Of a DNA stretch of 42,860 nt, positions 1,281-42,860 are shown in pieces (position 1 is the first letter of the stretch; each line of letters starts with the position of its first letter). Made by a program: the position numbers and the translations under genes. The stretch is taken from positions 1 through 42,860 of IMG/VR virus record IMGVR_UViG_3300028920_000131; one strand, given 5' to 3'. The notes under the pieces were generated by a model. That model was not told the DNA's origin and ran no database searches. It saw nothing but the letters and a program-made list of their open reading frames with translations. The DNA comes from a virus.

Positions 1281-1585
1281 GATCCTCCCAGCCCTGTCCG
1301 TTAGGACAGAGCCGAGGGATTTGTGCGAAGAAGGGGTAATGAGCCACCTTCTCTGCATTACAAGCGAGGAGAGAGATTTTTCTCAAAGAGAATGACAGGC
1401 TCTCTCCTCACCTCTAGTATTTATCGGCTGGTGGGGTTGTAGGAGACCCGCATTCGCAGTTCTCTTGTAAACCCCCATCAACCGATAAATGTTTTAAATG
1501 TGCTGTGAGCAGACAAAGGTGCGACCTTCGACTTTTGAGCCAGGTTTTAAAAAGCTCAAACTGCCCCTCGCAAGGGTTCTGCTCA
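1281..1585. ncRNA. Densely structured non-coding segment (candidate RNA)
   Basis: About 320 bases without a gene hold a series of strong inverted repeats. They are CTGTCC/GGACAG (1294-1299/1304-1309), GAGGAGAGAG/CTCTCTCCTC (1366-1375/1400-1409, with an inner TTCTC/GAGAA), a roughly 18-bp arm starting ATTTATCGG at 1419 and ending CCGATAAAT at 1490, GAGCAGA/TCTGCTC (1507-1513/1578-1584) and TTTGAGC/GCTCAAA (1534-1540/1554-1560). The GC content is higher than the flanks. It lies between two minus-strand genes, so it may be the leader or intergenic part of that message, but the wobble and mismatch pattern does not settle the strand. It is not a tRNA and matches no RNA family I can name. Confidence 0.5.
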
Positions 1586-8981: not shown

Positions 8982-8998
8982 TACAATCAAGTCATGAC
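8982..8998 (+). promoter_or_regulatory. -10 box and GTCATGAC site at glycosyltransferase start
   Basis: TACAAT (8982-8987) ends 6 bases before the ATG at 8994, again a leaderless arrangement. A GTCATGAC palindrome (8991-8998) covers the start codon. The -35 is weak. Confidence 0.45.
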
Positions 8999-9680
8999 CA
9001 AAGATAAACGCAAAAAGGTATTTATAGTAATTCTAAACCAAGGAGAAACCAAGTCTGGATTAGAGACACAAGTATATTTATGGATGCAAGAGCTGGGGAA
9101 CAAATATGTTTATAATTATTATCCCACAAAGTATGCTCATCGCCCAATATCTAATAATAGAAATCATATTGTAAAAGATTTTTTAGCTACAGACTGTGAA
9201 TATCTGGTAATGATAGATGATGATACCTTCCCCATAAAAAATCCCCTAGAACTAATAGAATATGATAAAGATGTAATTGGCGCTATTTATCCTGGTAGAG
9301 ATGAAATGGGAATACACTATCACATATACAAATTTGGTAAGGATTATCCAAAAAAGATTACATTTGACCAATATGAGAATAATGAAATTAAGGGATTAAC
9401 CAAAATAGACGCAGTTGGAACTGGTTGTATTTGTATTAGAAGAAATGTGCTTGAGAAGATAAAGCGCCCCTTCGATGACCTATTTGATAAGGATGGTTTG
9501 ATGATAACTAACGACGACCTTCATTTTTCGATCAAGTGTCAAAAAGAGGGATTTGAGGTTTGGACTCATGGAGATTATATGTGTAGTCATTATAAAACAG
9601 TGGACTTATTACAGATGGCTCATCTGATAATAAAGGCAAGAAATGATAGGGGAAAAGCAGATAAAAAGAGAAAAGGCTAG
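8994..9680 (+). CDS. GT-A fold glycosyltransferase
   Basis: The 228-aa protein has SNNRNHIVKDFL, then the DxD-type metal/nucleotide-sugar motif MIDDDTFP (residues about 75-82), and later DAVGTGCICIRRNVLEKI, an acceptor-side pattern common in GT2-like enzymes. It should transfer a sugar from a nucleotide donor. Acceptor unknown. It lies between the decoration proteins and the first Ser-Pro repeat protein, so a virion glycoprotein acceptor is a reasonable inference. Confidence 0.75.
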   Translation: MTKDKRKKVFIVILNQGETKSGLETQVYLWMQELGNKYVYNYYPTKYAHRPISNNRNHIVKDFLATDCEYLVMIDDDTFPIKNPLELIEYDKDVIGAIYPGRDEMGIHYHIYKFGKDYPKKITFDQYENNEIKGLTKIDAVGTGCICIRRNVLEKIKRPFDDLFDKDGLMITNDDLHFSIKCQKEGFEVWTHGDYMCSHYKTVDLLQMAHLIIKARNDRGKADKKRKG

Positions 9681-9957
9681 GGTTAAGGAGTTTAACAAAA
9701 TAGATGGTTTGGTTGGAGCACAAAACGTAGGCCATATTGTTGACTCCATGAATGAGGATTTAGAAAGGAAAAGAGAGAAAGAGTATGAAAATGAGATGAA
9801 CGCCAGAAACAAATATTTCCTCCCCCTGTGGAGAAGGGCCATAGAAGAACTAAGGTCTGGATTTAGGGTTGATCCCAAGAAAGAAAAGAGGCCAGAGGTC
9901 TATCAAGTTCCCAAAATATATGTGCCAAGAAAAAAAGATCCAATTGTTGTAAAATAA
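9643..9957 (+). CDS. Charged helical hypothetical protein (104 aa)
   Basis: The 104-aa frame overlaps the glycosyltransferase by 38 bases. Lys/Glu-rich helices dominate (RKREKEYENEMNARNKYF near residues 43-60), with a basic proline-containing tail. It may be a small virion or adaptor protein. No family recognised. Confidence 0.55.
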   Translation: MIGEKQIKREKARVKEFNKIDGLVGAQNVGHIVDSMNEDLERKREKEYENEMNARNKYFLPLWRRAIEELRSGFRVDPKKEKRPEVYQVPKIYVPRKKDPIVVK

Positions 9958-9959
9958 TA

Positions 9960-9988
9960 TTGTTTACTTTTATAAACTTCTATATAAT
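9960..9988 (+). promoter_or_regulatory. Promoter of first Ser-Pro repeat gene
   Basis: TTGTTT (9960-9965), 17-bp spacer, TATAAT (9983-9988). The ATG is 8 bases later (9997), giving at most a very short leader and no Shine-Dalgarno. Confidence 0.6.
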
Positions 9989-9996
9989 ATACCTAT

Positions 9997-10818
9997 ATGA
10001 ATAAACCCGCACAATACCTAGACGGCAATCGCAACGTCATCCCAGATACAGACTGGGGATTAAGGTCTGAAACAGTTGCCACCCTAGATGCTGGAACTGG
10101 CTCATACACACTTTTTACAGTTACTGGAACAGTTCTGTTTAGAATATTAGCCATTTGTGAAACCACTTTAACTGGAGCTAGTGCTACAATAGAGGTGGGT
10201 ATTTTGGGAAACACAGCGAAATTAATTGCCCAGACCACTGGAACCAATCTGGCAGCTGGTGAGATTTGGCATGACAACGATCCTGACTCTGGTATAGAAG
10301 CAACTACGGTAATGACAGAGAATGTGTTATCTAATGGAGCAGATGTTCTTCTAACGATTGCCACAGCCCCATTAACCGCTGGTCAAATTAAATTTATTGC
10401 TTTTTGGTATCCCCTATCTTCTGACGGCTTCGTAGAGGGAGTTAAAGGAATGACCCTGGCTATCGGCAGTCCGTCGGTGAGCCCAAGTGTTTCTCCTTCA
10501 GCCAGCCCTTCTCTTAGCCCTTCAGCGTCTCCCTCCGTCAGCCCCTCATCTAGCCCGTCAGCCAGTCCAAGCTCATCCCCTTCTGCCTCCCCATCAAGTA
10601 GCCCGTCGTCTAGCCCAAGTGCCTCACCTTCATCTAGCCCGTCAGCCAGTCCTTCAGTCAGCCCCTCATCTAGTCCATCCGTATCTCCATCGGCCAGTCC
10701 GTCAATTAGCCCGTCGCCAAGTATTTCGCCCTCTTCCAGCCCATCTGTTAGTCAGTCGCTTAGTCCTTCGCCCAGTCCTTCAGTTAGCCAGTCGGTTAGT
10801 CCGTCGGTTAGCGACTAA
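9997..10818 (+). CDS. Ser-Pro repeat virion protein 1 (273 aa)
   Basis: Residues 1-155 form a beta-rich globular domain (Thr/Ala/Gly-rich, no recognised family). Residues about 157-272 are an almost pure array of SPS[VASIL] units. There is no hydrophobic signal or membrane anchor, so the array should be an exposed polyproline-like rod on the virion. Its own promoter and a terminator isolate it as one transcription unit. It is the first of three such proteins and lies directly before the glycan-enzyme cluster, making it a candidate acceptor for O-linked modification (inference). Confidence 0.7.
   Translation: MNKPAQYLDGNRNVIPDTDWGLRSETVATLDAGTGSYTLFTVTGTVLFRILAICETTLTGASATIEVGILGNTAKLIAQTTGTNLAAGEIWHDNDPDSGIEATTVMTENVLSNGADVLLTIATAPLTAGQIKFIAFWYPLSSDGFVEGVKGMTLAIGSPSVSPSVSPSASPSLSPSASPSVSPSSSPSASPSSSPSASPSSSPSSSPSASPSSSPSASPSVSPSSSPSVSPSASPSISPSPSISPSSSPSVSQSLSPSPSPSVSQSVSPSVSD
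10465..10812 (+). repeat. Ser-Pro repeat array 1
   Basis: A 12-base coding period giving S-P-S-x units, x mostly A, S or V. The protein repeat is regular but the DNA is not: Ser uses AGC, AGT, TCN and Pro uses all CCN codons in mixed order. Confidence 0.9.
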
Positions 10819-10824
10819 TAAAAT

Positions 10825-10846
10825 GCCCCAGAAATGGGGCTTTTTT
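10825..10846 (+). terminator. Rho-independent terminator
   Basis: GCCCCA (10825-10830) pairs with TGGGGC (10835-10840), loop GAAA, followed by T6. Ends the first Ser-Pro repeat gene. Confidence 0.85.
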
Positions 10847-10850
10847 AATG

Positions 10851-10879
10851 TTGTAATGTCATGACTAAATTAGTATAAT
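10851..10879 (+). promoter_or_regulatory. Promoter of the glycan-enzyme operon, with GTCATGAC operator
   Basis: TTGTAA (10851-10856), 17-bp spacer, TATAAT (10874-10879), ATG 6 bases later. GTCATGAC (10858-10865) begins one base after the -35, nearly the same place as in the promoter at 1820-1848. This suggests joint regulation of the two units by one palindrome-binding protein. Confidence 0.7.
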
Positions 10880-10885
10880 CTCACT

Positions 10886-11677
10886 ATGAAATTATCCGTA
10901 ATCATCCCAAGCTATAAAGACCCCTATCTCAAAAAGACTATCAGCTCCATCCTGGATAACTCAGAACTACCAGAAGATCAACTTGAAATTATCCCTGTAT
11001 TAGATGGTTATTGGTCAGACGATGATATTTACCAAGATGATAGAGTTAAAATTGTTCATCTGGGCAAGAATGTGGGAATGAGAGAGGCGATTAACAGCGG
11101 GGTTAGGGTGGCTACTGGAGAGTTTCTAATGAGATCTGATGAGCATTGTATGTTTGACAAGGGCTTTGACCGAAAAATGACTGGCGTATGCGAGCCGAAC
11201 TGGATAATGTGTGCCACCCAGTATTATTTGGACCCGATTAAATGGGAAAAAATGGATTTACCCCCAGTTAATCACCAGAAGCTTGTTATTCAGGGGGGAA
11301 AGAAGTTCGCAGGCAGGAGATGGCCAGAGAGAGACGAAGCCAAGAAACACAAGAAATTAAGTCAAACTATGGCTATGCAGGGATCATGTTGGGTTATGCC
11401 TAGAAAATGGTGGGAAGACGTAATAGTGGGACTACAGACAGAAGGATATGGGCCATTGATACAAGATAGTCACGAAATGGTGTTTAAGACATGGAAAGCA
11501 GGGGGTAAGTTAGTTTTAAACAGAGACACATGGTTTGCCCACAAACATCGTAGTTTTCCCCGCACTCATAATAATGGAACCAAACAAACCCCAGCTAACT
11601 GCGATGCTGGATACAAGTACGCCCTAGATATGTGGGGGGAATATTATAAACAAATAAAAAGAAGGTGGAAAATATGA
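10886..11677 (+). CDS. GT2 family glycosyltransferase
   Basis: A 263-aa enzyme that starts with the classic GT2 sequence LSVIIPSYKDPYLKKTI. It has VLDGYW (residues 38-43) and a DxD-equivalent RSDEH (83-87). The C-terminal part contains QGSCWVMPRKWWED and a GP-x5-HE region resembling polypeptide GalNAc-transferase-like GT2/GT27 layouts. First gene of an overlapping chain of nine more genes. It is paralogous to the last gene of the chain (shared VLDGYWxD and D[EA]HC). Confidence 0.85.
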   Translation: MKLSVIIPSYKDPYLKKTISSILDNSELPEDQLEIIPVLDGYWSDDDIYQDDRVKIVHLGKNVGMREAINSGVRVATGEFLMRSDEHCMFDKGFDRKMTGVCEPNWIMCATQYYLDPIKWEKMDLPPVNHQKLVIQGGKKFAGRRWPERDEAKKHKKLSQTMAMQGSCWVMPRKWWEDVIVGLQTEGYGPLIQDSHEMVFKTWKAGGKLVLNRDTWFAHKHRSFPRTHNNGTKQTPANCDAGYKYALDMWGEYYKQIKRRWKI

Positions 11678-12588
11678 GATTTACAAATTACCAGAATCTT
11701 GGAGACGGCATAAAACACAAGTTGGCAGACAAACAAGAAGGGAGTGTCTTTTGGGAAAAGGGGAAGTGGGACAATTATGTTTTGCCATTATTACCCAAAA
11801 ACCCAAAGGGCTTAACCTACATAGACATGGGTACAAATGGTGGCTTATTTTTACACTACGCAAAAGACTTAGGATTTAAGAGGGCCGTTGGGGTTGATAT
11901 AAACCCAGACGTAGTTGAGAGGGGTGTAAAATATAGAGATAGGGTGGGCGGAGACTGGGAAATATTTGCAGCTAGAATGGAAGAGGCGATAGATAATTTG
12001 CCCATGTGTGACTATATGACTTTTATTAATTCACATTATTATTTGCTTATTAAAGAGTGGTTAGAGTTAGTAGACAAGTTAAGACGCAAAACCAGATATG
12101 TAATTATAACGACTGTCAATAAATATAGATGGTATTGTATGGCCTCTGGTAGATCTAGAGATGTGAAAAAATACTTTAAGGATTGGGAAATGGCTGGATA
12201 CGTTCCACAACTTCCAGTTGAGGGAGACTCATGTCCAAGAAGCCTGTCCACCATAAACTTTATGAACAAAGACTTAGAAAGGGTTAAGATTGGCGATTTA
12301 AAAAGAGGGGCTCATGTGAAAACAGATTTCCACGAAGAGGTGGACAAGGGAGTAGATCCGTTTAAAACAAAATATTTTAGAAGACTAAGGGCTAATCATA
12401 AAAAATCTCCCATAGAAGAATTGCGGCTAAAGATGTTGGGAAAGGTTGAGATGTTTAATGATGTTAAGAAAAATGGAGTTAAAGAACCAATTATAATTAA
12501 TAAACATAATCGAATTCTAGATGGAAATCATAGAGCAAGGATTCTTGACTATCTTGGATATGAGTCTGCCATAGTAAGGAGAGTATGA
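11674..12588 (+). CDS. SAM methyltransferase fused to ParB-like domain
   Basis: Start is the ATG at 11674, which overlaps the previous stop (ATGA). The Rossmann methyltransferase motif is YIDMGTNGG (49-57), with VDINPD (74-79). The last 45 residues contain GVKEPIIIN and LDGNHRARILDYLGY, the pattern of ParB/sulfiredoxin-like domains. Such fusions occur in phage and CPR genomes but the role is not known. It may methylate a sugar or protein. The ParB-like part could bind nucleotide or substrate. Confidence 0.7.
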   Translation: MRFTNYQNLGDGIKHKLADKQEGSVFWEKGKWDNYVLPLLPKNPKGLTYIDMGTNGGLFLHYAKDLGFKRAVGVDINPDVVERGVKYRDRVGGDWEIFAARMEEAIDNLPMCDYMTFINSHYYLLIKEWLELVDKLRRKTRYVIITTVNKYRWYCMASGRSRDVKKYFKDWEMAGYVPQLPVEGDSCPRSLSTINFMNKDLERVKIGDLKRGAHVKTDFHEEVDKGVDPFKTKYFRRLRANHKKSPIEELRLKMLGKVEMFNDVKKNGVKEPIIINKHNRILDGNHRARILDYLGYESAIVRRV

Positions 12589-12782
12589 AGAAAAACATTG
12601 GAGAACTTATAGACGAGCTTAGTATCACAAATACAAAAATATTTTATTTAATAGATAAAATACAAAGCGATAATTTTACTAAAAAAGATTCTAAAGAAGT
12701 TCAAGCTCTCAATATTTACAGATCTAAGCTACGAAATGCAATAAATGAATATTTTAATGAAAATCAAACCATAAAAGTATGA
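12585..12782 (+). CDS. Small helical protein (65 aa)
   Basis: MKKNIGELIDELSITNTKIF starts a fully helical 65-aa protein coupled by ATGA to the methyltransferase and by 4 bases to the next gene. Its pattern resembles small proteins often found beside sugar-modifying genes in uncultured phages, but I cannot name the family. Possibly a partner subunit of a neighbouring transferase. Confidence 0.55.
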   Translation: MKKNIGELIDELSITNTKIFYLIDKIQSDNFTKKDSKEVQALNIYRSKLRNAINEYFNENQTIKV

Positions 12783-13570
12783 TAAGTATATTTTGGGCAG
12801 ATAAACACAAATATCGCTTGTCGGCCAGAATAAGGGGCAATGAAATAGCAGAACGACTAGGGGTCAAATTAAATCCGAAAGATGGATATGAAAATGATAC
12901 TCGTATTTATATAAAGCCTAACTCCCTTGACTATGTTCTTAGAGATTCGTGGGTAGACGTTCTAGATGGGGGTAAATTTGTCAAGAAAATAGCAAAAAGG
13001 CCAGACTTAAAACTCATCGCCTGTACTCAGCACAGCTATGATGTGTTGAAAAAAATGTTGCCTAATAAAATTGTATTAATACCCCACCACCATCTTAACT
13101 TTGAAAGATATGTTAGGGATAGAAAAAGCATAGACACCTGTGGGTATATTGGTAGCCCGTCTTCATTGGCATATAAAATGTATGGGAAAATTGGAAAGGA
13201 AATAAGGAAAAGTGGCATGAAATTTGTGGCCAAGTTTAAGTTAAACAAAAGAGAAGTTGCTGTTAATTTTTATCGTAAAATAGATATTTTGGTTATTGGG
13301 GCTTGGGAGTTAGGAGACAGACACCCCCACAAAATACCGACTAAAATAATTAATGCGGCATCATTTGGGATACCCACTGTGGCGTATCCCCTAAATGGAT
13401 ATAAAGAAATAGAGGGGCATTATATTAGGGCAGGGAACATGAGGGAAATGATTGATGGGATTAATAGGCTAAGGAACAAACATTATTATTGTCAGTGGCC
13501 CCAAGAATTGATTAAAATGGCAGAGCCATATCATATAGACAATGTTGTTAAATTGTATAAAAATCTATGA
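12779..13570 (+). CDS. GT-B-like glycosyltransferase (GT4-like C-terminal half)
   Basis: The 263-aa protein has a C-terminal segment HPHKIPTKIINAASFGIPT followed by VAYPLNGYKEI, which fits the donor-binding E-x7-E region of GT-B enzymes. A GYIGSPSS loop is in the middle. It is shorter than typical GT4 (about 370 aa), so the N-terminal acceptor domain is reduced. Coupled to both neighbours by 4-base overlaps. Confidence 0.65.
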   Translation: MISIFWADKHKYRLSARIRGNEIAERLGVKLNPKDGYENDTRIYIKPNSLDYVLRDSWVDVLDGGKFVKKIAKRPDLKLIACTQHSYDVLKKMLPNKIVLIPHHHLNFERYVRDRKSIDTCGYIGSPSSLAYKMYGKIGKEIRKSGMKFVAKFKLNKREVAVNFYRKIDILVIGAWELGDRHPHKIPTKIINAASFGIPTVAYPLNGYKEIEGHYIRAGNMREMIDGINRLRNKHYYCQWPQELIKMAEPYHIDNVVKLYKNL

Positions 13571-14223
13571 AAATCACTATTCTTTATTACACCAGCAACC
13601 AGGAAGGAAATAAGTTCGAGGAACGAGTTAAACAAAACATATTAAAAGTTAAAAAAGATATTCCAATTATAAGCGTATCTCAAAAACCGATAGATTTTGG
13701 TCACAATATATGTGTAGGAGAACATGGAGCGTCTGGTTTTAATATGTTCAGACAGGTTCAAATAGGTCTTAGAAAAGTTAAGACACCGTTTGTGGTTTCG
13801 GCAGAAGCAGATTGTTTATATCCGCCCAAATACTTTACTCATATTCCAAGAAAACTAGATGTAGCTTATCGGTCATGGAACACATACGTTATGCCACAAT
13901 GGAGAGCCTTTTTCTTCCACAAATATATGGGGGCTACTCATTCTCAGGTGGTGGGAACAAAATACTACTTAAACAGACTAAATAAATTATTTGAGGGAGC
14001 TCCAGATTGGTCTACAAAAGAAAAGAATTTCCCCAAAGAAAGAACTGGAATGGAAGATGTGTTTGATGAGGTAATTCTGTATAAAAGTCGCTATCCAGTA
14101 GTTCAGATAAAGACTACAAGAAGTATGAGGCACTATACCTTTTCGGATAGAACCCCAGTACTAGAACTTCCACATTGGGGAGATGGAAAAGAGTTTAGAA
14201 AAAAATATTATGGAGATGAATAA
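13567..14223 (+). CDS. Putative GT-A glycosyltransferase
   Basis: A 218-aa protein opening ITILYYTSNQEGNKFEERV, with a metal/donor motif VVSAEADCLYPP (about residues 77-88) in the place of DxD. A GMEDVFDEVIL stretch lies before the end. The family is not certain, but the GT-A like order (beta strand, ExD, acceptor loop) and its place in the cluster support the call. Confidence 0.55.
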   Translation: MKITILYYTSNQEGNKFEERVKQNILKVKKDIPIISVSQKPIDFGHNICVGEHGASGFNMFRQVQIGLRKVKTPFVVSAEADCLYPPKYFTHIPRKLDVAYRSWNTYVMPQWRAFFFHKYMGATHSQVVGTKYYLNRLNKLFEGAPDWSTKEKNFPKERTGMEDVFDEVILYKSRYPVVQIKTTRSMRHYTFSDRTPVLELPHWGDGKEFRKKYYGDE

Positions 14224-14705
14224 TGTTTGTAATTTTAACCAGTCAAAGGGCTGGCTCTCATTTATTAGCATCTCTTTTAAATTCGCACCCAGATCTTAGG
14301 TGTTACGATGAAATATTTTTATTACCAAAAACCAGGCCGACAAAATTGGGAAGAAAAGAATTTAATAAATTAAAGTGGAATGAGGGGTTTATCCTACATT
14401 ATAGTCAGTATATGAATTTATCGGATGAAAGAAAAAAGATTATTAAGAGCAGGGTAATCCATCTAACTCGCAATAAGGTGAATCAGGCAAAGTCTATGAA
14501 AAGAAATATAAAAAGAGCTAAAAGGTTGATAGACTATAGGTGGTATGTTTTTAGGGATAAATTTGAAAACATATATAACATTACTTATGAAGAAATATGC
14601 AATAATAAAAACATTTCAGAATATAGTAATGACAAATTATTAAAATTTTTAGGGGTAAAACCCCATACAATGAAAACAAATTTCAAGAAAGGAATAGATC
14701 CATGA
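14223..14705 (+). CDS. Sulfotransferase (PAPS-dependent), short
   Basis: The N-terminus has a P-loop-like PAPS phosphosulfate motif SQRAGSHLLASLLNSHP (residues 7-23). HLTRNKVNQAKS (80-91) fits the 3'-phosphate binding motif (R...S). At 160 aa it is shorter than usual sulfotransferases (about 250-300). It would move sulfate from PAPS to a sugar or protein hydroxyl. Start overlaps the previous stop by one base (TAATG). No PAPS synthesis genes are present, so the donor must come from the host. Confidence 0.75.
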   Translation: MFVILTSQRAGSHLLASLLNSHPDLRCYDEIFLLPKTRPTKLGRKEFNKLKWNEGFILHYSQYMNLSDERKKIIKSRVIHLTRNKVNQAKSMKRNIKRAKRLIDYRWYVFRDKFENIYNITYEEICNNKNISEYSNDKLLKFLGVKPHTMKTNFKKGIDP

Positions 14706-15358
14706 AATTGATAGATGCTATGAAAAAAGAGGGTCGTCCATTCGAAATCCCAGACTGCTCTCGTAATGAACTCCCAGAGTTTTTTAAAGAAATGGGATAC
14801 AAAGTGGGGGCTGAAATAGGGGTATATAAAGGACACTATACCCGAAGATTCGCCAAAGCTGGTCTTAAAATATATGGAGTAGACCTATGGAAGCCGTATA
14901 AGGATTTTGACAGAGAAACAGATAATCGGGTGACCAGACAAGAAGAGCTGTTTGAAAGGGCTACAAATTTCCTTTCTCGGTATAAAGAAGTTACTCTTAT
15001 AAGAAAAAAATCTATGGATGCAGTTAAAGATTTCGAAGACGAGTCTTTAGACTTTGTTTATATTGATGCCAATCATAGGATTAAATTTGCCCTAGAAGAT
15101 ATTTATGAGTGGTCTAAAAAGGTTAGAAGGGGCGGAATTGTGTCTGGGCATGATTATGTTGATGCCAGTGATTTTGGAGAGAATATAAATACCAAATATA
15201 AGCGCTGGTATGATAGGAATATTCATGTTAAATATGCGGTTGATGCCTATACAAAGGCTAAAGAATATGAAATAAAGAACTGGTATGTCCTGGGCAGAAA
15301 AGAAAAGAGAGATGGAGAGAAAAGAGATAAGTGTAGAAGTTTTATGTGGATAAAATGA
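14702..15358 (+). CDS. Class I SAM methyltransferase
   Basis: The 218-aa enzyme has AEIGVYKGHYTRRFA (37-51), YGVDLW (58-63), DFVYIDANHR (117-126) and GGIVSGHDY (144-152). This is the Methyltransf_24/FkbM-like pattern typical of sugar and small-molecule O-methyltransferases. It is 4 bases overlapped with the sulfotransferase, supporting action on the same product. Confidence 0.8.
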   Translation: MKLIDAMKKEGRPFEIPDCSRNELPEFFKEMGYKVGAEIGVYKGHYTRRFAKAGLKIYGVDLWKPYKDFDRETDNRVTRQEELFERATNFLSRYKEVTLIRKKSMDAVKDFEDESLDFVYIDANHRIKFALEDIYEWSKKVRRGGIVSGHDYVDASDFGENINTKYKRWYDRNIHVKYAVDAYTKAKEYEIKNWYVLGRKEKRDGEKRDKCRSFMWIK

Positions 15359-16134
15359 AGAACCTATTTATTTATATCACTCCAGAGAAAACTTTTGAGC
15401 ACGACGAAGAGCTTTCTAAGCTGGTTAAAATATCCATAGAAAATAGCAATTTCTTTGGGCTAGATACGGTGCTAGTAACTAACTTTGATTATGAATATCA
15501 CGGGGTTAGGGCAACCATAGTCCCAGATGAGTGCTTTTCTTCGTTTAAGCCAACTACTACTAAACTAAAAACTATTATCTACATGATAGAGAATGGGATG
15601 ATAGATAATGACTGGTATTGGTTTCATGATCTAGATGCCTTTCAATTAGAATATATTACCCTAAACGAGGTCTTACATGAGCTGGATGGAAGGAATATCG
15701 GCATGACAGATTATGGTAGGAGCAGCATCAATCGGGGAAGAGATAAGAGGTGGAGCACGGGAACAATATTTTTTAATAAAGACTGCAAAGACTTTTTAGA
15801 TAAGTGGTGGCAGGTTACTAAGTTATATAAAGTAAATGAAGAAGTATCTTTATTGGAAATGTTAAAAAAGGAAAGATATAAAAAATATAGAGATCAAATA
15901 ACTAAAATAGATATTACATATAATCTTGGGACCAGAAAAAGAGATGTAAAATATGTTTATGACATGGCTAAAAAACCACTTAAAGTAGTCCATTTCCACC
16001 CCCATGACAAGAGAAAGCTCTCCCTTGAGGATGGAGATAATCTTGATGTATGTATGTATGGTAAGAGCAGGATTGGCAAACCACTAATGACACCGCACCT
16101 AATCCATTTATTTAATAAACATGGCATAAAATGA
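15355..16134 (+). CDS. Putative GT-A glycosyltransferase
   Basis: Start at ATG 15355 (ATGA with previous stop) is preferred over a GTG nine bases upstream. The 259-aa protein has WYWFHDLDAFQ (DxD within HDLDA) followed by NIGMTDYGRSS and WSTGTIFFNK, the donor-site and substrate-loop order of GT-A enzymes. C-terminal KVVHFHPHDK has a His-rich metal-site look. Confidence 0.6.
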   Translation: MKNLFIYITPEKTFEHDEELSKLVKISIENSNFFGLDTVLVTNFDYEYHGVRATIVPDECFSSFKPTTTKLKTIIYMIENGMIDNDWYWFHDLDAFQLEYITLNEVLHELDGRNIGMTDYGRSSINRGRDKRWSTGTIFFNKDCKDFLDKWWQVTKLYKVNEEVSLLEMLKKERYKKYRDQITKIDITYNLGTRKRDVKYVYDMAKKPLKVVHFHPHDKRKLSLEDGDNLDVCMYGKSRIGKPLMTPHLIHLFNKHGIK

Positions 16135-16586
16135 GTATTAAAATAAGAAGCAAAGAACCAAAAACATATATAGTAATGGGAGCACCACACTCTGCTACTT
16201 CTTTTATTTCTAAAATATTACATGAGAATGGGGTGGACATGAATCCGTCTGATGAAAAATATTATGAAGACAATCAGTTTGCGTATTTTAATCTTTGCAT
16301 GGAAAAAAAGAATAAAGAATGGCCTGGTCACATGAAGAAGTTAATAAGAAAAAGACAAAAGAAGTTTTGGGGGTGGAAAGATCCGAAAACCGCTTTTACC
16401 CTAGATAAATACCTCCCCCACCTTAAAAACGATGTTTACCTAATCTGTTGTTTCCGTAAACCAAGCAGGGTATTAAGAAGCTGGAGAAGGTCAAGAAAGG
16501 CCAAGGAGGGCAGGGGGTTGTTAGACAAATATAATAACGCTTTATTAAAATCAATAAAATATTTTTTAGAATATGAAGATAAATAA
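16131..16586 (+). CDS. Second sulfotransferase, short
   Basis: 151 aa. GAPHSATSFISKIL (17-30) fits the 5'-phosphosulfate loop, WGWKDPKTAF (80-89) is a common sulfotransferase pattern, and CFRKPSRVLRSW (107-118) fits the 3'-phosphate site. It differs from the first sulfotransferase in all motifs, so it is not a recent duplication. It overlaps both neighbours. Confidence 0.75.
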   Translation: MSIKIRSKEPKTYIVMGAPHSATSFISKILHENGVDMNPSDEKYYEDNQFAYFNLCMEKKNKEWPGHMKKLIRKRQKKFWGWKDPKTAFTLDKYLPHLKNDVYLICCFRKPSRVLRSWRRSRKAKEGRGLLDKYNNALLKSIKYFLEYEDK

Positions 16587-17481
16587 ACAATTATCCATTT
16601 TAATCCCAGCTCGAAATGAGGAGTTCTTAAAAATTACCATAGAAGAACTGCTCAAAAAAATAGAAGCAGATACAGAGGTGATTGCAGTTTTGGATGGATA
16701 CTGGCCAGATCCCCCACTAAAACATGATGATAGGTTAAAAGTTATTCATCTTAACAAGGCTATCGGGCAAAGAGCAGCCACCAATATGGCAGCCAGACTA
16801 TCTAAGGCTAAGTATGTAATGAAAATGGATGCTCATTGTGCAGTATCTCGGGGGTTTGACAGAATCATGATTGAAAACATGAAAGACCATTACACTATGA
16901 CCCCTCTAATGAGAAACCTATGGGCATTTGATTGGAAGTGTATGAAGTGTGGTAAAAGGTGGTATCAAGGCCCAGAACCAACTAAGTGTCAAAATGAGGA
17001 GTGTGATAGCAAGGAGTTTACCAAGAAAATTAAGTGGAAGGGAAAAGAAAGACCCCAGAGCTATGCTTACAGATTTAACAGTCAACTAGAGTTTAAATAC
17101 TGGGGAGAATATAAGAAACGACAAAAGGGAGACATTGTAGACACGCTGGGACTTCCAGGTTCTTGTTTTATGTGCACGAGAGACAAATACTGGGAACTTA
17201 ATATCTGTGATGAGTCTTGGGGCAGTTGGGGAGGTCAGGGTACTGAGGTATCTCTAAAAACATGGCTGTCTGGTGGAGAGGTGAAGGTGAACAAAAAGTG
17301 TTGGTATGCACACATGTTCAGAACTCAACACGGCTTCTCGTTCCCCTATCCCAACCCAGCCAGAGATCAGCTAAAAGCCAAGAATACCCTAAGAGACATA
17401 TTCTTAAAGGATAAATGGCCACAAGCTAAGATGAAATTGAAAGATTTGATAGACAAGTTTGCCCCAGTTCCAGATTGGTAG
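16573..17481 (+). CDS. GT2 glycosyltransferase with inserted zinc ribbon
   Basis: This 302-aa enzyme opens LSILIPARNEEFLKITIEEL, then VLDGYWPD (39-46) and DxD-like KMDAHC (84-89). Residues about 120-150 carry C123-x2-C126 and C139-x4-C144, a zinc ribbon not found in the paralogous GT2 at 10886. The C-terminal half has GLPGSCFMCTRDKYWE and a W-G-G-Q-G-E motif, as in GalNAc-transferase-like GT2 enzymes. Last gene of the coupled cluster; a separate promoter follows. Confidence 0.8.
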   Translation: MKINKQLSILIPARNEEFLKITIEELLKKIEADTEVIAVLDGYWPDPPLKHDDRLKVIHLNKAIGQRAATNMAARLSKAKYVMKMDAHCAVSRGFDRIMIENMKDHYTMTPLMRNLWAFDWKCMKCGKRWYQGPEPTKCQNEECDSKEFTKKIKWKGKERPQSYAYRFNSQLEFKYWGEYKKRQKGDIVDTLGLPGSCFMCTRDKYWELNICDESWGSWGGQGTEVSLKTWLSGGEVKVNKKCWYAHMFRTQHGFSFPYPNPARDQLKAKNTLRDIFLKDKWPQAKMKLKDLIDKFAPVPDW

Positions 17482-17511: not shown

Positions 17512-17517
17512 TTGGGT

Positions 17518-18924
17518 ATGGCAACAAACACCCATTCAATTCTATTTGACGATTCTCCTGAATATGCTTATCGTGCGGCTGCAAGCCTATCTGGATTTGA
17601 TAGTTTGGCTGGAATAACCATAGAGGCATATATTTATTTTGATTCCCTTAGTGGTCTTATAATCCCGATATCTAACTGGGGCACGGCTGCTGCATCTAGG
17701 CAATTTACCGTATACACCAACGATGATAACAAGTTGTATTTTGGATTTTCTACTGCTGACCCATACGCAAGAAATGTAATTAGTGATAACGAAGTATTAA
17801 GTACTGGCTCTTGGCTTCATATTGGGGCGTATCTTAATCCAGGCGGAAACTGCACTATGTGGGTTGACAGGGAAGTTGTTGCTTCTAGCACTGGAGGGAC
17901 TACTGGAACGAACCTGGTTAATGGGACAGACGCAGATTACGGCTTGCATTTTGGATATAGAGAACCGTCTTCAAACGGACAGCTATCTGGGAAGATAGAC
18001 GAAGTTAGATTTTGGAGTGGATATAGAGATTTGGCTGCTGACAGCGACGACCAAATAGACCCATCTACATCTGGATTAATCGCTTATTATAGATTTAATA
18101 ATAGTGCATTAGATGAAACCAGTAACGATAACGACTTAACTGTATCTGGAGCTACTTATTCAACATCAGTTCCCTTTGCTGGTACTTATCCCAGCGGAAC
18201 AAGCGCCTCTCCATCTGTCTCTCCCTCAGTTTCTCCCTCGGTTAGCCCAAGCGTTTCTCCGTCCATTTCTCCAAGTGTTTCCCCCTCTATTTCCCCATCC
18301 GCAAGCCCTTCAGTTTCTCCCAGCGTTAGCCCCTCAATTTCTCCCTCCATATCCCCCTCTGCGTCGATTTCTCCCAGTATAAGCCCGTCAGTATCGCCAT
18401 CCATATCCCCATCGATTTCTCCGTCTGCCAGCCCGTCTGTGTCCCCCTCTTTGTCTCCATCACTATCACCAAGTATCTCGCCATCTATCAGCCCATCGGT
18501 ATCTCCGCCAGCAGATAAGACTTACACAAGGGGAGACTATAATGCCCTACCAGCAGATGACACAGATTTAGAAAACGCATTTATAGGTAGTGATTATACA
18601 GATGTATCTAGCGATAACGATGTCTACGTAACTCAAGGCGCTACAGATGAATATGCCATATTCTTATTCAAAGACCAAAACGACAACAACACAGACCCAA
18701 TTACTCCCAATTGGAAAGGTAAGAGCGATTTAGCCCCCTCTAGTTCTAAGGTTGCATTACAAATTTATGACTTTGATGGTGAGACTTGGGAAGATGTAGC
18801 TGAAGAAAACGAAGCAGATGCAGATGAAGAATTTATTTTAACTGGAACAATTAGTTCAGATTTAGACCATTTTTATGGTGAAGATAACTGGGTAACCTTT
18901 AGGGTTTATCAGGATGCAATATAA
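17518..18924 (+). CDS. LamG-like domain / Ser-Pro repeat virion protein 2 (468 aa)
   Basis: Residues 1-225 fit a LamG/concanavalin-like jelly-roll (SILFDDSPEYAYR, TIEAYIYFDS, WLHIGAYLNP, GKIDEVRFWSG, LIAYYRFNN), a fold often binding glycans. A Ser-Pro array follows (about residues 229-330). The rest is an acidic beta-rich C-terminal domain. It is probably a receptor-binding or decoration fibre subunit with the repeat as a stalk between two domains. Starts right after the glycan-enzyme cluster and is coupled to the next repeat protein (TAATG). Confidence 0.75.
   Translation: MATNTHSILFDDSPEYAYRAAASLSGFDSLAGITIEAYIYFDSLSGLIIPISNWGTAAASRQFTVYTNDDNKLYFGFSTADPYARNVISDNEVLSTGSWLHIGAYLNPGGNCTMWVDREVVASSTGGTTGTNLVNGTDADYGLHFGYREPSSNGQLSGKIDEVRFWSGYRDLAADSDDQIDPSTSGLIAYYRFNNSALDETSNDNDLTVSGATYSTSVPFAGTYPSGTSASPSVSPSVSPSVSPSVSPSISPSVSPSISPSASPSVSPSVSPSISPSISPSASISPSISPSVSPSISPSISPSASPSVSPSLSPSLSPSISPSISPSVSPPADKTYTRGDYNALPADDTDLENAFIGSDYTDVSSDNDVYVTQGATDEYAIFLFKDQNDNNTDPITPNWKGKSDLAPSSSKVALQIYDFDGETWEDVAEENEADADEEFILTGTISSDLDHFYGEDNWVTFRVYQDAI
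18203..18510 (+). repeat. Ser-Pro repeat array 2
   Basis: S-P-S-x units (x mostly V, I, A, L) with mixed synonymous codons, linking the LamG-like domain to the C-terminal domain. Confidence 0.9.
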
Positions 18925-21900
18925 TGCCAATATTAGACGCACAAACACTACCACCAGAGATAACAGATAAATACGAAGTTACCGACAATGCTTTAACTTA
19001 TATTCCCAAAGAAGATGTAAAAGACAAAATCGAAGTAGAAATAGGAGATAGTAAACAAGTAGACTTCAAACCTCAGTTTAAGATAATGCGTTGGGATAAT
19101 GAGGTAAACTTTTCTATTCGTGCAATCGAAGATCCGACTGCTACAACTGAGTATGATAAGGAAAAGATTAAGTACATAGCTAAAGATTACGAACTACATA
19201 TATACGACAAGCCAGAGGCAAGTGAAGATGGAGGCTATGAGGTAGAGTTTGTTTTACCATCAAAGCCAAGTTCTAATATTATTACCTCAACTATTGAAAC
19301 TAAGGGATTAAACTTTTACAAACAATTAGAATTAACTCAGCAAGAGATAGATGGTGGAAATGATAGACCTGAAAATGTAATTGATTCCTACGCAGTTTAT
19401 CACTCGACTAAAGGAGGAATGAATAATAGTGCTGGAAAAGAATATAAGGTCGGTAAGGCATTTCATATTTATAGAATAAAGGCTACTGACGCAAATAATA
19501 AAGAAACTTGGTGTGACCAAGATATAGATATAGAACATAAAACCCATACAATTACCATCCCTCAGAAATTCTTAGATGAAGCAGTTTACCCAGTAATTGT
19601 TGATCCAACGTTTGGGTATACAAGCATTGGAGGCTCTGATATATCAAGAACACAAAACTATTTTAGAGCTATTAGTGGTTATTCTCCTGTTTCTGATGGA
19701 ACATTAGATTCTTTGTCTTGGTATGGATATTGGAATTACAGTTCTAATTACAGTAAGATGGGTTTATATAATGGAACATCTTTAATTGCAGAATCTAGTT
19801 CTATTATTAATCCATCATCAGCTCAATGGAATGAAAGATCATGTGGAGATGAGAATATTTATTCAGCAAATAGCTATTATATTGGAGAAGTTCATGAAGA
19901 TTATTCATGTGTTTTATATTATGATTCTGAAGGATCTCATTACTTATTTGCTCATACATATAGTAATAGTTTTCCAAACCCATGTACATGGAATGTTACG
20001 GAATATGACAATTTGTGGTCATTTTACGCTACCTATACAGCCAGTGGGGGAAGCGCCTCTCCCTCCATCTCACCATCAGTTTCTCCATCTGTATCCCCAT
20101 CTATAAGTCCTTCTATTTCCCCCTCGGTCTCTCCAAGTGCTAGTCTTAGTCCATCAGCCTCTCCTAGTTTAAGTCCCAGTGTATCCCCATCCATTTCCCC
20201 TAGCCTATCTCCTAGTGTTTCACCCAGCGTATCCCCAAGCGTCAGCCCCAGTATCTCTCCCAGTGTTAGTCCCAGCGCCTCTATATCTCCAAGTTTTAGT
20301 CCATCTATATCGCTTAGCGTTAGCCCAAGTGTATCTCTCAGTATTTCCCCTTCCGTTAGCCCCTCTGCCTCGATTAGTCCGTCTATTAGTCCAAGTATCA
20401 GCCCTTCGGTGTCTCCCAGCCTAAGTCCAAGTATATCACCTAGTATTAGCCCAAGCGCATCGCCTAGTGTGAGCCCTTCGGTTAGTCCTAGTGCGAGTCC
20501 CTCGGTGTCTCCAAGCGTGAGTCCGAGTGTAAGCCCATCAGCCTCAATATCCCCCTCTATTAGCCCGAGTATCTCGCCATCTATAAGTCCGTCTATTTCG
20601 CCTTCGGTAAGTCCATCATTGTCCCCATCTGCGAGCATAAGCCCATCATTGTCGCCCAGTGTAAGCCTAAGCCTGTCCCCCTCTGTGTCGCCGAGCGTAT
20701 CACCTAGTGTTTCACCCAGCATTTCCCCGAGTGTCAGTCCGAGTGCATCTCTCTCTCCTAGCCTATCCCCATCCATTAGTCCAAGCATTTCTCCATCTAT
20801 TTCACCAAGTGTGTCTGAAGCGGTTGAAATAGTTTTGAGTACCGATTTATGGGAGGTAACCTTTGGGGGGGTAAGTGCCAGCCCAAGCGTATCGCCCAGC
20901 GTATCGCCCAGTATCTCTCCTAGCGTCTCTCCGTCGGCGTCAATAAGCCCAAGTTTATCACCCTCTGTATCTCAGAGTGTATCGCCTTCAGTTTCACCAT
21001 CAATCAGCCCGAGCGTGTCCCCAAGTGCATCTCTATCACCCAGTGTCAGCCCCTCTATCAGTCCTTCCATATCACCTAGCATTTCTCCGTCCATTTCACC
21101 CTCAGTAAGTCCATCAGCCAGCTTATCTCCCTCGGTATCTCCATCCGTTTCGCCCAGCATAAGTCCTTCTCTTAGTCCATCGATTAGTCCAAGCATAAGC
21201 CCCTCAGTGTCGCCCAGTGTTTCTCCAAGTGCTAGTATCAGCCCATCATTGTCTCCAAGCATATCCCCATCGGTTAGCCCATCGGCCTCTCCTAGCATAA
21301 GCGTATCGGTAAGCCCCAGTGTGTCCCCCAGTGTTTCACCTTCTGCTTCTATCAGCCCATCGGTATCCCCCTCTGTATCACCCAGCCTATCGCCCTCGGC
21401 TTCTCCATCTGTCAGCCCTAGCGTATCTCCCTCAGTGTCACCCAGTGTTTCTCCAAGTGCTAGTGTTAGTCCCAGCATCAGCCCGTCTGTATCTCCATCT
21501 GTGTCGCCAAGCCTTAGCCCATCAATCAGCCCTAGTTTATCTGGGGTAAGTGCATCTCCATCTATCTCGCCGAGTGTTTCCCCGTCTGCCAGTCCCTCGG
21601 TTTCTCCATCGGCATCAATCAGCCCCAGCGCCAGTCCTAGCCTATCCCCCTCGGCAAGCCCATCTGTTTCCCCGAGTGTGTCCCCAAGTGCTTCGCCTTC
21701 AGTATCACCTTCAGCCTCGCCCTCAGCATCCCCGTCTGCATCTCCCTCAGCCTCCCCCTCGGTGTCACCATCTGCGAGTCCATCACTATCACCCTCTATC
21801 AGTCCGTCTGCATCCCCGTCTGTGTCTCCGTCTGCATCCCCGTCTATTAGCCCAAGTTTATCCCCAAGCGTATCCCCATCTCTTTCGCCCAGCGTGGTCT

Positions 21901-21986
21901 ATTACAAATACAGGCCTGTAGTTAATATTGAAAGGGAAAAACCAACGCCAAATATTGATGGAGATAACCCAATAATAATTGTATAA
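18924..21986 (+). CDS. Giant Ser-Pro repeat virion protein 3 (1020 aa)
   Basis: Residues 1-235 resemble a phage structural domain that ends VYPVIVDPTFGYT, a pattern seen in many uncultured phage tail or fibre proteins. Residues about 236-374 are a Tyr/Ser-rich beta domain, perhaps carbohydrate-binding. Then about 600 residues of S-P-S-[VILA] repeats are interrupted twice (residues near 632-650 and 873), followed by a short basic tail ending in PIIIV. If extended, the array would be a very long thin rod. No signal peptide or membrane anchor. Probably a stalk or brush on the virion. Confidence 0.75.
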   Translation: MPILDAQTLPPEITDKYEVTDNALTYIPKEDVKDKIEVEIGDSKQVDFKPQFKIMRWDNEVNFSIRAIEDPTATTEYDKEKIKYIAKDYELHIYDKPEASEDGGYEVEFVLPSKPSSNIITSTIETKGLNFYKQLELTQQEIDGGNDRPENVIDSYAVYHSTKGGMNNSAGKEYKVGKAFHIYRIKATDANNKETWCDQDIDIEHKTHTITIPQKFLDEAVYPVIVDPTFGYTSIGGSDISRTQNYFRAISGYSPVSDGTLDSLSWYGYWNYSSNYSKMGLYNGTSLIAESSSIINPSSAQWNERSCGDENIYSANSYYIGEVHEDYSCVLYYDSEGSHYLFAHTYSNSFPNPCTWNVTEYDNLWSFYATYTASGGSASPSISPSVSPSVSPSISPSISPSVSPSASLSPSASPSLSPSVSPSISPSLSPSVSPSVSPSVSPSISPSVSPSASISPSFSPSISLSVSPSVSLSISPSVSPSASISPSISPSISPSVSPSLSPSISPSISPSASPSVSPSVSPSASPSVSPSVSPSVSPSASISPSISPSISPSISPSISPSVSPSLSPSASISPSLSPSVSLSLSPSVSPSVSPSVSPSISPSVSPSASLSPSLSPSISPSISPSISPSVSEAVEIVLSTDLWEVTFGGVSASPSVSPSVSPSISPSVSPSASISPSLSPSVSQSVSPSVSPSISPSVSPSASLSPSVSPSISPSISPSISPSISPSVSPSASLSPSVSPSVSPSISPSLSPSISPSISPSVSPSVSPSASISPSLSPSISPSVSPSASPSISVSVSPSVSPSVSPSASISPSVSPSVSPSLSPSASPSVSPSVSPSVSPSVSPSASVSPSISPSVSPSVSPSLSPSISPSLSGVSASPSISPSVSPSASPSVSPSASISPSASPSLSPSASPSVSPSVSPSASPSVSPSASPSASPSASPSASPSVSPSASPSLSPSISPSASPSVSPSASPSISPSLSPSVSPSLSPSVVYYKYRPVVNIEREKPTPNIDGDNPIIIV
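20050..21894 (+). repeat. Ser-Pro repeat array 3 (three blocks)
   Basis: Blocks at about 20050-20814, 20875-21540 and 21550-21894 of S-P-S-x coding units. The x position is almost only V, I, L or A. Ser and Pro codons are shuffled, so DNA-level identity between units is low. The first break reads VEIVLSTDLWEVTF. Confidence 0.9.
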
Positions 21987-30560: not shown

Positions 30561-31080
30561 AAGAGGGAGTAAGTAAATTTGTCCTCTTAGTATTTTGATT
30601 AGTTAATAAATACTAGAAACCCTACCTAAAGCATTTAGGCAATACAGTTACGTCGGTAATGGTGCAAGTACTTGTTGACAGTTATTTCCTGTCGGGAGGT
30701 TAGATTGCTGTCTAACTCATGTAATCTGGAACTTGTTTAACGCCTCATCCAGCATTTCTGTTTGTCCTTGGCGTTAGTTTTCACTAACACAGACAGAGAG
30801 TACCCTTTAGCTTACAGATCTAAGCGGTCTATAGAGTTGAAAACTGCTCTTATGAAATTGTACGGGGGCTCTATAGATACTCCCTGTAAACTCTCTCTGC
30901 CTATGTTAATGAACTAAAAAGAACCCACAACTCAAGTTAAGAAAAATTGTGGGCTCGTGTTAATTATTAAGTAGGTCATAAAAAAATCAGTTACTCTATT
31001 CTTGGGCGCAGTGGGTATGTTGTCCTTAACCCATACCCAAGAATACAATAACTGATACGGACAACATTTTCACTGCTTTA
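30561..31080 (+). ncRNA. Candidate large structured RNA with 3' H-type pseudoknot
   Basis: No gene in about 546 bases; instead at least twelve inverted repeats. Helices: 30561-30566/30583-30588, 30588-30595/30608-30615, 30625-30630/30634-30639, 30677-30681/30689-30693, 30699-30704/30711-30716, 30738-30744/30770-30776, 30794-30800/30893-30899, 30812-30817/30884-30889, 30828-30836/30869-30877 and 30924-30930/30947-30953. The 3' end forms an H-type pseudoknot: stem 1 is 30986-31006/31036-31056 (18 bp plus a 3x3 loop), and stem 2 is 31008-31025/31059-31076 (17 of 18 pairs, two of them G-U on the plus strand). The G-U pairs favour plus-strand transcription. A TATAAT at 30527-30532 could be its promoter. 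Size and style recall ornate large phage RNAs (ROOL, GOLLD), but identity is not shown. Confidence 0.6.
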
Positions 31081-31098
31081 ATATAAGAGTATTATAGT

Positions 31099-35257: not shown

Positions 35258-35466
35258 AAAAATTCCCCTCTTAATATAGATACTAGCGGTACTTCGTGTC
35301 TTACTAATTGGCCTAAGAATTGATGTTCAACTAGATACATTACTTGTATTATTTCATTGGCCATATTCCTAGTAACATGAATATCTACTATGGTTTCAAT
35401 GGCTTTAGCTTTATTATTGGCCTTGTATTGTTTACCAATATATTCTGGCCTAATTTTATTATCCAT
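35254..35466 (-). CDS. Hypothetical protein (70 aa)
   Basis: Small beta-rich protein (KAIETIVDIHVTRNM and IIQVMYLVEHQFLGQLV). Followed by the coupled 51-aa gene. Upstream there is a pseudoknot-capable spacer (35489-35555). Confidence 0.5.
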   Translation of the reverse strand: MDNKIRPEYIGKQYKANNKAKAIETIVDIHVTRNMANEIIQVMYLVEHQFLGQLVRHEVPLVSILRGEFL

Positions 35467-35488
35467 ATTTTTATTCTATTTATTAACT

Positions 35489-35555
35489 GATATCCCACTA
35501 CTACAGAGGTAAATAGTGGGGTATCAATCAATAAGCAAGTATCAGAGCCTCTGTA
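35489..35555. promoter_or_regulatory. H-type pseudoknot-capable spacer
   Basis: GATATCCCACTA (35489-35500) pairs with TAGTGGGGTATC (35514-35525), 12 bp with one wobble. TACAGAGG (35502-35509), in its loop, pairs with CCTCTGTA (35548-35555). The order 5'S1-5'S2-3'S1-3'S2 is that of an H-type pseudoknot. It lies between minus-strand genes, but the wobble is T-G on the plus strand, so orientation is unclear. Confidence 0.5.
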
Positions 35556-42597: not shown

Positions 42598-42623
42598 TCT
42601 ATAATTTCCCTCTTAATATTTAA

Positions 42624-42860
42624 TCATTTCTTAGCCTCATTAAATTCTAACATGGTCATCCAATCATCAAATGGCATAATCACCAAAGGCTTTCTTCTCA
42701 ACCCCTTAATCAACAGGGCTTGATAATCGCCTTTCTTAGCCTCACCTTTGAGCTGATCCATCCATCCCTCTATTTTCTTGATATTACATTGCTTCCCATA
42801 TTTTACCTCAAAACTCCAACCATAAGTACCTTCTATGTCTACGCCCCCGTCTCTAGTTTG
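42624..42860 (-). CDS. PD-(D/E)XK nuclease, C-terminal part (end copy)
   Basis: Continuation of the gene at 1-256 when the ends are joined. Residues through PLVIMPFDDWMTMLEFNEAK to the TGA stop at 42624-42626. The N-terminal codons are cut by the window edge. This copy reads Tyr at residue 44 where the left copy reads Asp. Confidence 0.7.
   Translation of the reverse strand, partial: QTRDGGVDIEGTYGWSFEVKYGKQCNIKKIEGWMDQLKGEAKKGDYQALLIKGLRRKPLVIMPFDDWMTMLEFNEAKK
42698..42860. repeat. Direct terminal repeat, right copy
   Basis: Same 163 bases as 1-163 except for A at 42824 (C at 127). Joining the copies gives a circle of 42,697 bp. Confidence 0.95.

Follow-up and report, generated by a model that had tools for sequence, protein, structure and literature searches.

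A gene-free segment of an uncultured tailed phage carries interleaved stems, a predicted terminator, and a probable copy of a hairpin shared among phages

A gene-free segment within a minus-strand gene block

What does a tailed phage encode in about 520 nt without genes, and from which strand would it be read? The segment in question lies at positions 30561 to 31080 of the window, by which we mean the whole stretch of DNA analyzed, a linear uncultured-virus record of 42,860 bases that contains terminase, portal, and major head genes. The original prediction had placed here a large plus-strand RNA in the style of ROOL and GOLLD, located between convergent operons and ending in an H-type pseudoknot. 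The absence of genes was borne out, the largest open reading frames (ORFs) inside the segment being of 51, 38, and 22 amino acids (aa) with TTG starts. The convergent operons were not, as both neighbors are on the minus strand and plus- and minus-strand genes converge only at about 30230. The segment sits within a minus-strand gene block, with an ORF matching the HNH endonuclease PHROG upstream (31374-31099) and, downstream of the RNA, a 109-aa ORF with CxxC pairs (30552-30223) for which family searches gave no match. BLASTN of the segment in the phage collection produced chance-level matches alone, and searches for relatives using single neighboring proteins (of 512 and 185 aa) gave no result.

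Interleaved stems and the probable strand of transcription

The two stems of the predicted pseudoknot are present where they had been placed, stem 1 at 30986-31006/31036-31056 and stem 2 at 31008-31025/31059-31076. In stem 1, 19 Watson-Crick pairs form on either strand, accompanied by 2 mismatches on plus and by 1 G-U pair and 1 mismatch on minus. Stem 2 has 15 Watson-Crick pairs on either strand, accompanied by 2 G-U pairs (17 of 18 positions paired) and 1 mismatch on plus and by 3 mismatches on minus. Stem 2 does gain its two G-U pairs only on the plus strand, the reason given for a plus-strand RNA, but stem 1 gains one only on the minus strand, so that the G-U argument cuts both ways. No other interleaved pair of the window reaches 15 or more Watson-Crick pairs out of 18 in both stems, and a second scan that required a U-tract after the interleaved pair returned one case in the window and none in eight shuffled genomes. 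At a looser threshold of 13 of 18, chance interleaved pairs were frequent (0 to 10 per shuffled window).

Read along the minus strand, stem scans place the arms in the order b (31076-31059, 5′ arm of stem 2), a (31056-31036, 5′ arm of stem 1), b′ (31025-31008, 3′ arm of stem 2, within the loop of stem 1), and a′ (31006-30986, 3′ arm of stem 1), with a U7 tract directly 3′ of stem 1 (30985-30979). Because of this order, stem a/a′ and its U7 tail constitute a predicted intrinsic terminator, that is, a stable hairpin followed by a U-tract, about 105 nt from the putative start. The stems span 21 and 18 positions, and the linkers between their arms measure 2, 10, and 1 nt, lengths that would not let both stems stack in full, which implies side-by-side packing or mutual exclusion. 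Judging from this geometry, both full stems should be unable to stack in the classical H-type manner, and the predicted fold on either strand prefers stem 1 enclosing a short hairpin, so the label of H-type pseudoknot was not confirmed. The minimum-energy fold of the approximately 105-nt minus-strand element is stem a/a′ with the inner hairpin (−35.6 kcal/mol, z of −4.8); b/b′ alone reaches −21.4 kcal/mol, and the geometry disfavors full b/b′ and a/a′ together.

A promoter-like site, TTTACA-17-TATAAT, precedes these arms on the minus strand (31119-31091), matching 11 of 12 consensus bases with a 17-base spacer. It ends at 31091, and the start predicted from it, at about 31084, coincides with the edge of the structured segment. 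The window has three sites with at least 11 of 12 matches, this one among them, and a shuffled window yields 0 to 4 per strand, so that such a site alone is not rare; weaker promoter-like sites were as numerous in the region as in shuffles in a simple promoter scan. Whole-segment folding was stronger than in dinucleotide shuffles on both strands, with a z of −8.0 on the minus strand and −3.7 on the plus strand, and for 30561 to 30912 the values were −4.1 and −1.5, respectively. The U-tract follows the interleaved stems on the minus strand only, and there is no good promoter on the plus strand. Promoter, U-tract, gene direction, and folding z-scores all favor a minus-strand transcript over the plus-strand RNA initially proposed, and the interleaved stems would form its 5′ end rather than its termination.

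Past the U7 tract, sequence and fold indicate a second terminator-like hairpin at 30956-30916 (GAGCCCACAA/UUGUGGGUUC, then UUUUU), which the terminator scan did not return because its 16-nt loop exceeds the loop limit of that scan. It is followed by a long folded hairpin at 30913-30780, with an outer stem of 21 positions (30913-30893 with 30800-30780), and by more helices between this hairpin and the 109-aa ORF.

A hairpin motif shared with other phages

Terminase and capsid searches led to a group of phages with mostly 55 to 75% identity in those proteins. The nearest relative having the region, G010, has, in the same operon, a stretch without genes (L025 4480-4051, minus strand), with a terminator-like stem at the corresponding place and no interleaved pair at the threshold used; homologue searches found no close homologue spanning the interleaved stems of the window. 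Relatives have gene-poor folded stretches, mostly of unrelated sequence, towards the end of this operon, at L025 4480-4051 itself and at L023 4631-5200, L028 11075-11676, L033 11186-11620, and L031 11400-11930. In the junction regions of these four additional relatives (L023, L028, L031, and L033), searches found neither the motif described below nor interleaved stems.

The window and the gene-free stretch of G010 have the letters ATGANNTAGACAGCANTCTA in common. Scanning the viral collection with this pattern retrieved three further records, two of them identical in sequence, and a looser pattern, filtered by stem complementarity, added three further distinct members. The resulting hairpin, AUGA-CCNNGA-CAGCAU-UCNNGG-AG, is 26 nt long and was found at six distinct phage loci outside the window. 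Across these six members, 20 columns are invariant, a figure biased towards the motif at AUGA, GACAGCA, and UC, which both search patterns fixed. In two of the six pairs both partners vary, and no cell is unpaired, a count likewise biased, as the members from the second pattern had been prefiltered for paired stems. Among 500 column shuffles, one attained the covariation score. The CC/GG pairs and the loop U do not vary among the six members, even though neither pattern had specified them. The hairpin had no Rfam match, and literature searches returned a paper on ROOL and GOLLD structure but nothing on the hairpin. BLASTN queries with further members against the phage collection, and with one against plasmids, yielded chance-level matches only. 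Seven pattern matches in genome contigs looked like chance occurrences, most of them falling within genes, and the member count leaves them out.

A model built without the window copy had its best window match at 30720-30699 on the minus strand, with 16.1 bits and an E value of 0.0058 in 320 kb that is optimistic, since it was the comparison between window and G010 that had supplied the seed. This copy, AUGA-GUUAGA-CAGCAA-UCUAAC, has the AUGA, GACAGCA, and UC of the shared hairpin, the same letters that had served as search seed. It departs from the members in GU/AC (still paired) for CC/GG, an A in place of the loop U, and the lack of the 3′ AGA, with CU where they have AG. In our judgement, it probably belongs to the group.

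In most members, the shared hairpin lies 110 to 420 nt ahead of a co-directional ORF; the next ORF comes within about 150 nt in the window, G010, G016/G017, and G051. In L178 and L037, a promoter-like site or an AT-rich start lies shortly before the hairpin, and a terminator-like hairpin comes after it. The RNA of G017 and G051 is located ahead of rightward genes, including terminase genes. One 138-kb phage, G052, has two copies (L247 1501-1526 and L251 1501-1526), the second with the loop CAGGAU. A GA-rich tract follows the hairpin in most members but not the copy in the window.

The member that most resembles the window in layout is G051, despite no detectable similarity to the window in terminase, portal, or capsid and only a weak match to its sugar-nucleotide dehydrogenase ORF. 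Its unit (L165 1151-1301) begins with TTGACA-17-TGTAAT (L165 1151-1179), a promoter read by eye, and continues with b (CCAACGACGA), a (AAAGAACCACTATTTGTGGCTT), b′ (TCGTCGTTGG), a′ (AAGCTACGAATGGTGGTTTTTT), and a U-tract, ending about 165 bases upstream of the G051 shared hairpin. The promoter and b-a-b′-a′-U order are those of the window in different letters, with the predicted terminator about 105 to 116 nt after the promoter, and the arrangement is unique in the 43-kb G051 record. A strict scan for interleaved stems with a U-tract found it once in the window (minus strand) and once in G051 (plus strand), against none in the other phage stretches scanned and none in eight shuffled genomes. 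G054 is 99.9% identical to G051 over 26.7 kb. No clear relationship was seen between the ORF that follows the RNA in the window and its counterpart in G051, and the interleaved layout was not seen in G010, G016/G017, L178, L211, or L037.

A possible conditional terminator and its alternatives

The reading that we consider best, with confidence slightly short of even, is a conditional-terminator or small-RNA (sRNA) cassette leading into a structured leader. Its transcription, termination, switching, and control are predictions drawn from the stems, U-tract, promoter-like sequence, strand bias, and G051 layout. Minus-strand transcription would start at about 31084 from a promoter of its own where the HNH gene ends, and the first 105 nt or so would fold as the interleaved stems b/b′ and a/a′. 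As b′ is made before a′, b/b′ could form first, and the 2-nt linker should then hinder the full terminator stem a/a′, so that the element might work as a conditional terminator. By default, an RNA of about 105 nt would be released; when the terminator failed, read-through would proceed via the second terminator-like hairpin and a structured stretch of about 400 nt, containing the shared hairpin, into the 109-aa gene. G010 and four other members are without the interleaved pair, which counts against this reading, as do the departures of the window hairpin from the other members and the number of weak promoter-like sites, no higher than in shuffles. A broader proposal, possible but held with less confidence, is that phages without detectable structural-gene homology to one another carry regulatory RNAs of a new class, built on the strongly conserved 26-nt hairpin module. 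In some members, the module would be preceded by a promoter and a terminator with its loop captured by the 5′ flank (b-a-b′-a′-U), acting by topological exclusion and not by shared bases. If true, several uncultured phages would share an RNA hairpin module that Rfam lacks, and two of these phages would also have an unusual terminator layout in common. This would provide a small testable system for how helix pairing with a terminator loop sets read-through, as well as a search model for further members.

Some known systems come close. Attenuators and riboswitch expression platforms also consist of a promoter, a short structured leader, an intrinsic terminator, and a gene, and in them an earlier helix competes with the terminator, as b/b′ may do in the window. 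This candidate competing helix differs in pairing the 5′ flank with the terminator loop, without sharing terminator-stem bases, and unlike in riboswitches, there is no Rfam aptamer in the segment. The leader of the lambda late promoter (pR′-tR′, 6S RNA, Q antitermination) has an intrinsic terminator within 100 to 200 nt of the promoter and a short RNA as default product, as the window element would, and the position of the RNA in G017 and G051 ahead of genes that include terminase genes is a further resemblance. In contrast, the window RNA comes at the end of a leftward block, followed by a single small ORF, and no Q-like gene was identified. Type III toxin-antitoxin RNAs (ToxI) combine a promoter, a pseudoknot RNA, a terminator, and a downstream ORF, and the window has the corresponding series with an interleaved-stem RNA. 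It could not be assigned to them, as tandem RNA repeats were absent and no ToxN-like gene was found, the downstream ORF having no family match.

Two alternatives dispense with switching. A stable minus-strand sRNA acting in trans might have an independent gene, either the promoter-stem-terminator unit or the hairpin RNA shared among the phages, an explanation that we rate as rather unlikely. It would suit L178 and L037, where the hairpin sits between a start and a terminator-like hairpin much like a stand-alone sRNA gene, and the two copies of G052 and the occurrence in otherwise unrelated phages; the ORF within about 150 nt after the hairpin in the window, G010, G016/G017, and G051 weighs against it. 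Slightly less probable still is that stem 1 with U7 and the hairpin at 30956-30916 are ordinary terminators of the HNH-gene transcript. The interleaving would then be fortuitous, or the inverted repeats would serve as a protein-binding site in the DNA, and what remains of the segment would be unselected spacer. The position directly after the HNH stop codon, the tandem U-tailed hairpins, and the segment's lack of close homologues would all agree with this. Ordinary terminators leave unaccounted for the minus-strand folding of the part past the terminators, the near-consensus promoter in front, and the recurrence of the b-a-b′-a′-U order ahead of the shared hairpin in a phage unrelated to that of the window.

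The remaining explanation is that of a plus-strand ornate large RNA, of ROOL or GOLLD style or of a new class, ending in a pseudoknot. Stem 2 pairs better on the plus strand, which also folds more strongly than shuffles, although much more weakly than the minus strand, and the plus strand has neither a U-tract, a good promoter, nor the gene neighbors. Rfam covariance models for ROOL and GOLLD gave no match at gathering thresholds or up to an E value of 10, nor was there any match in the segment to group I or II introns or another Rfam RNA. A tRNA search of the window found none. ROOL is often located near tRNA islands, and many GOLLD members exceed 800 nt (PMC12286853). The segment resembles both in being phage borne, gene free, and structured and differs in the lack of a model match and of tRNAs, in being on the opposite strand to that claimed, and in being shorter than GOLLD. 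This explanation is highly improbable, and we rejected it on the strand evidence and the absent Rfam match. From the original prediction, a structured phage RNA stays plausible, and no known class fits, but its strand, orientation, and comparison to ornate RNAs fail.

Other features of the window

A strongly structured stretch at 1310 to 1560 (minus-strand z of −6.8) lies ahead of the terminase genes and includes long inverted repeats at 1359-1416 and 1419-1490. Positions 1 to 2000 contain no minus-strand ORF of at least 100 aa, even with open ends, and the stretch is possibly a second RNA or a packaging site. Strong folding was also seen at 35401 to 35550 (z of about −4.5) and 42601 to 42750 (z of about −5.0). 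Three predicted proteins (9997-10818, 17512-18924, and 18924-21986) have long SPS(V/I/A/L)SPS repeats, and the structural block includes, at 8994 to 17481, a cassette of glycosyltransferase-, methyltransferase-, and sulfotransferase-like ORFs, recognized by eye and with one weak Pfam glycosyltransferase match.
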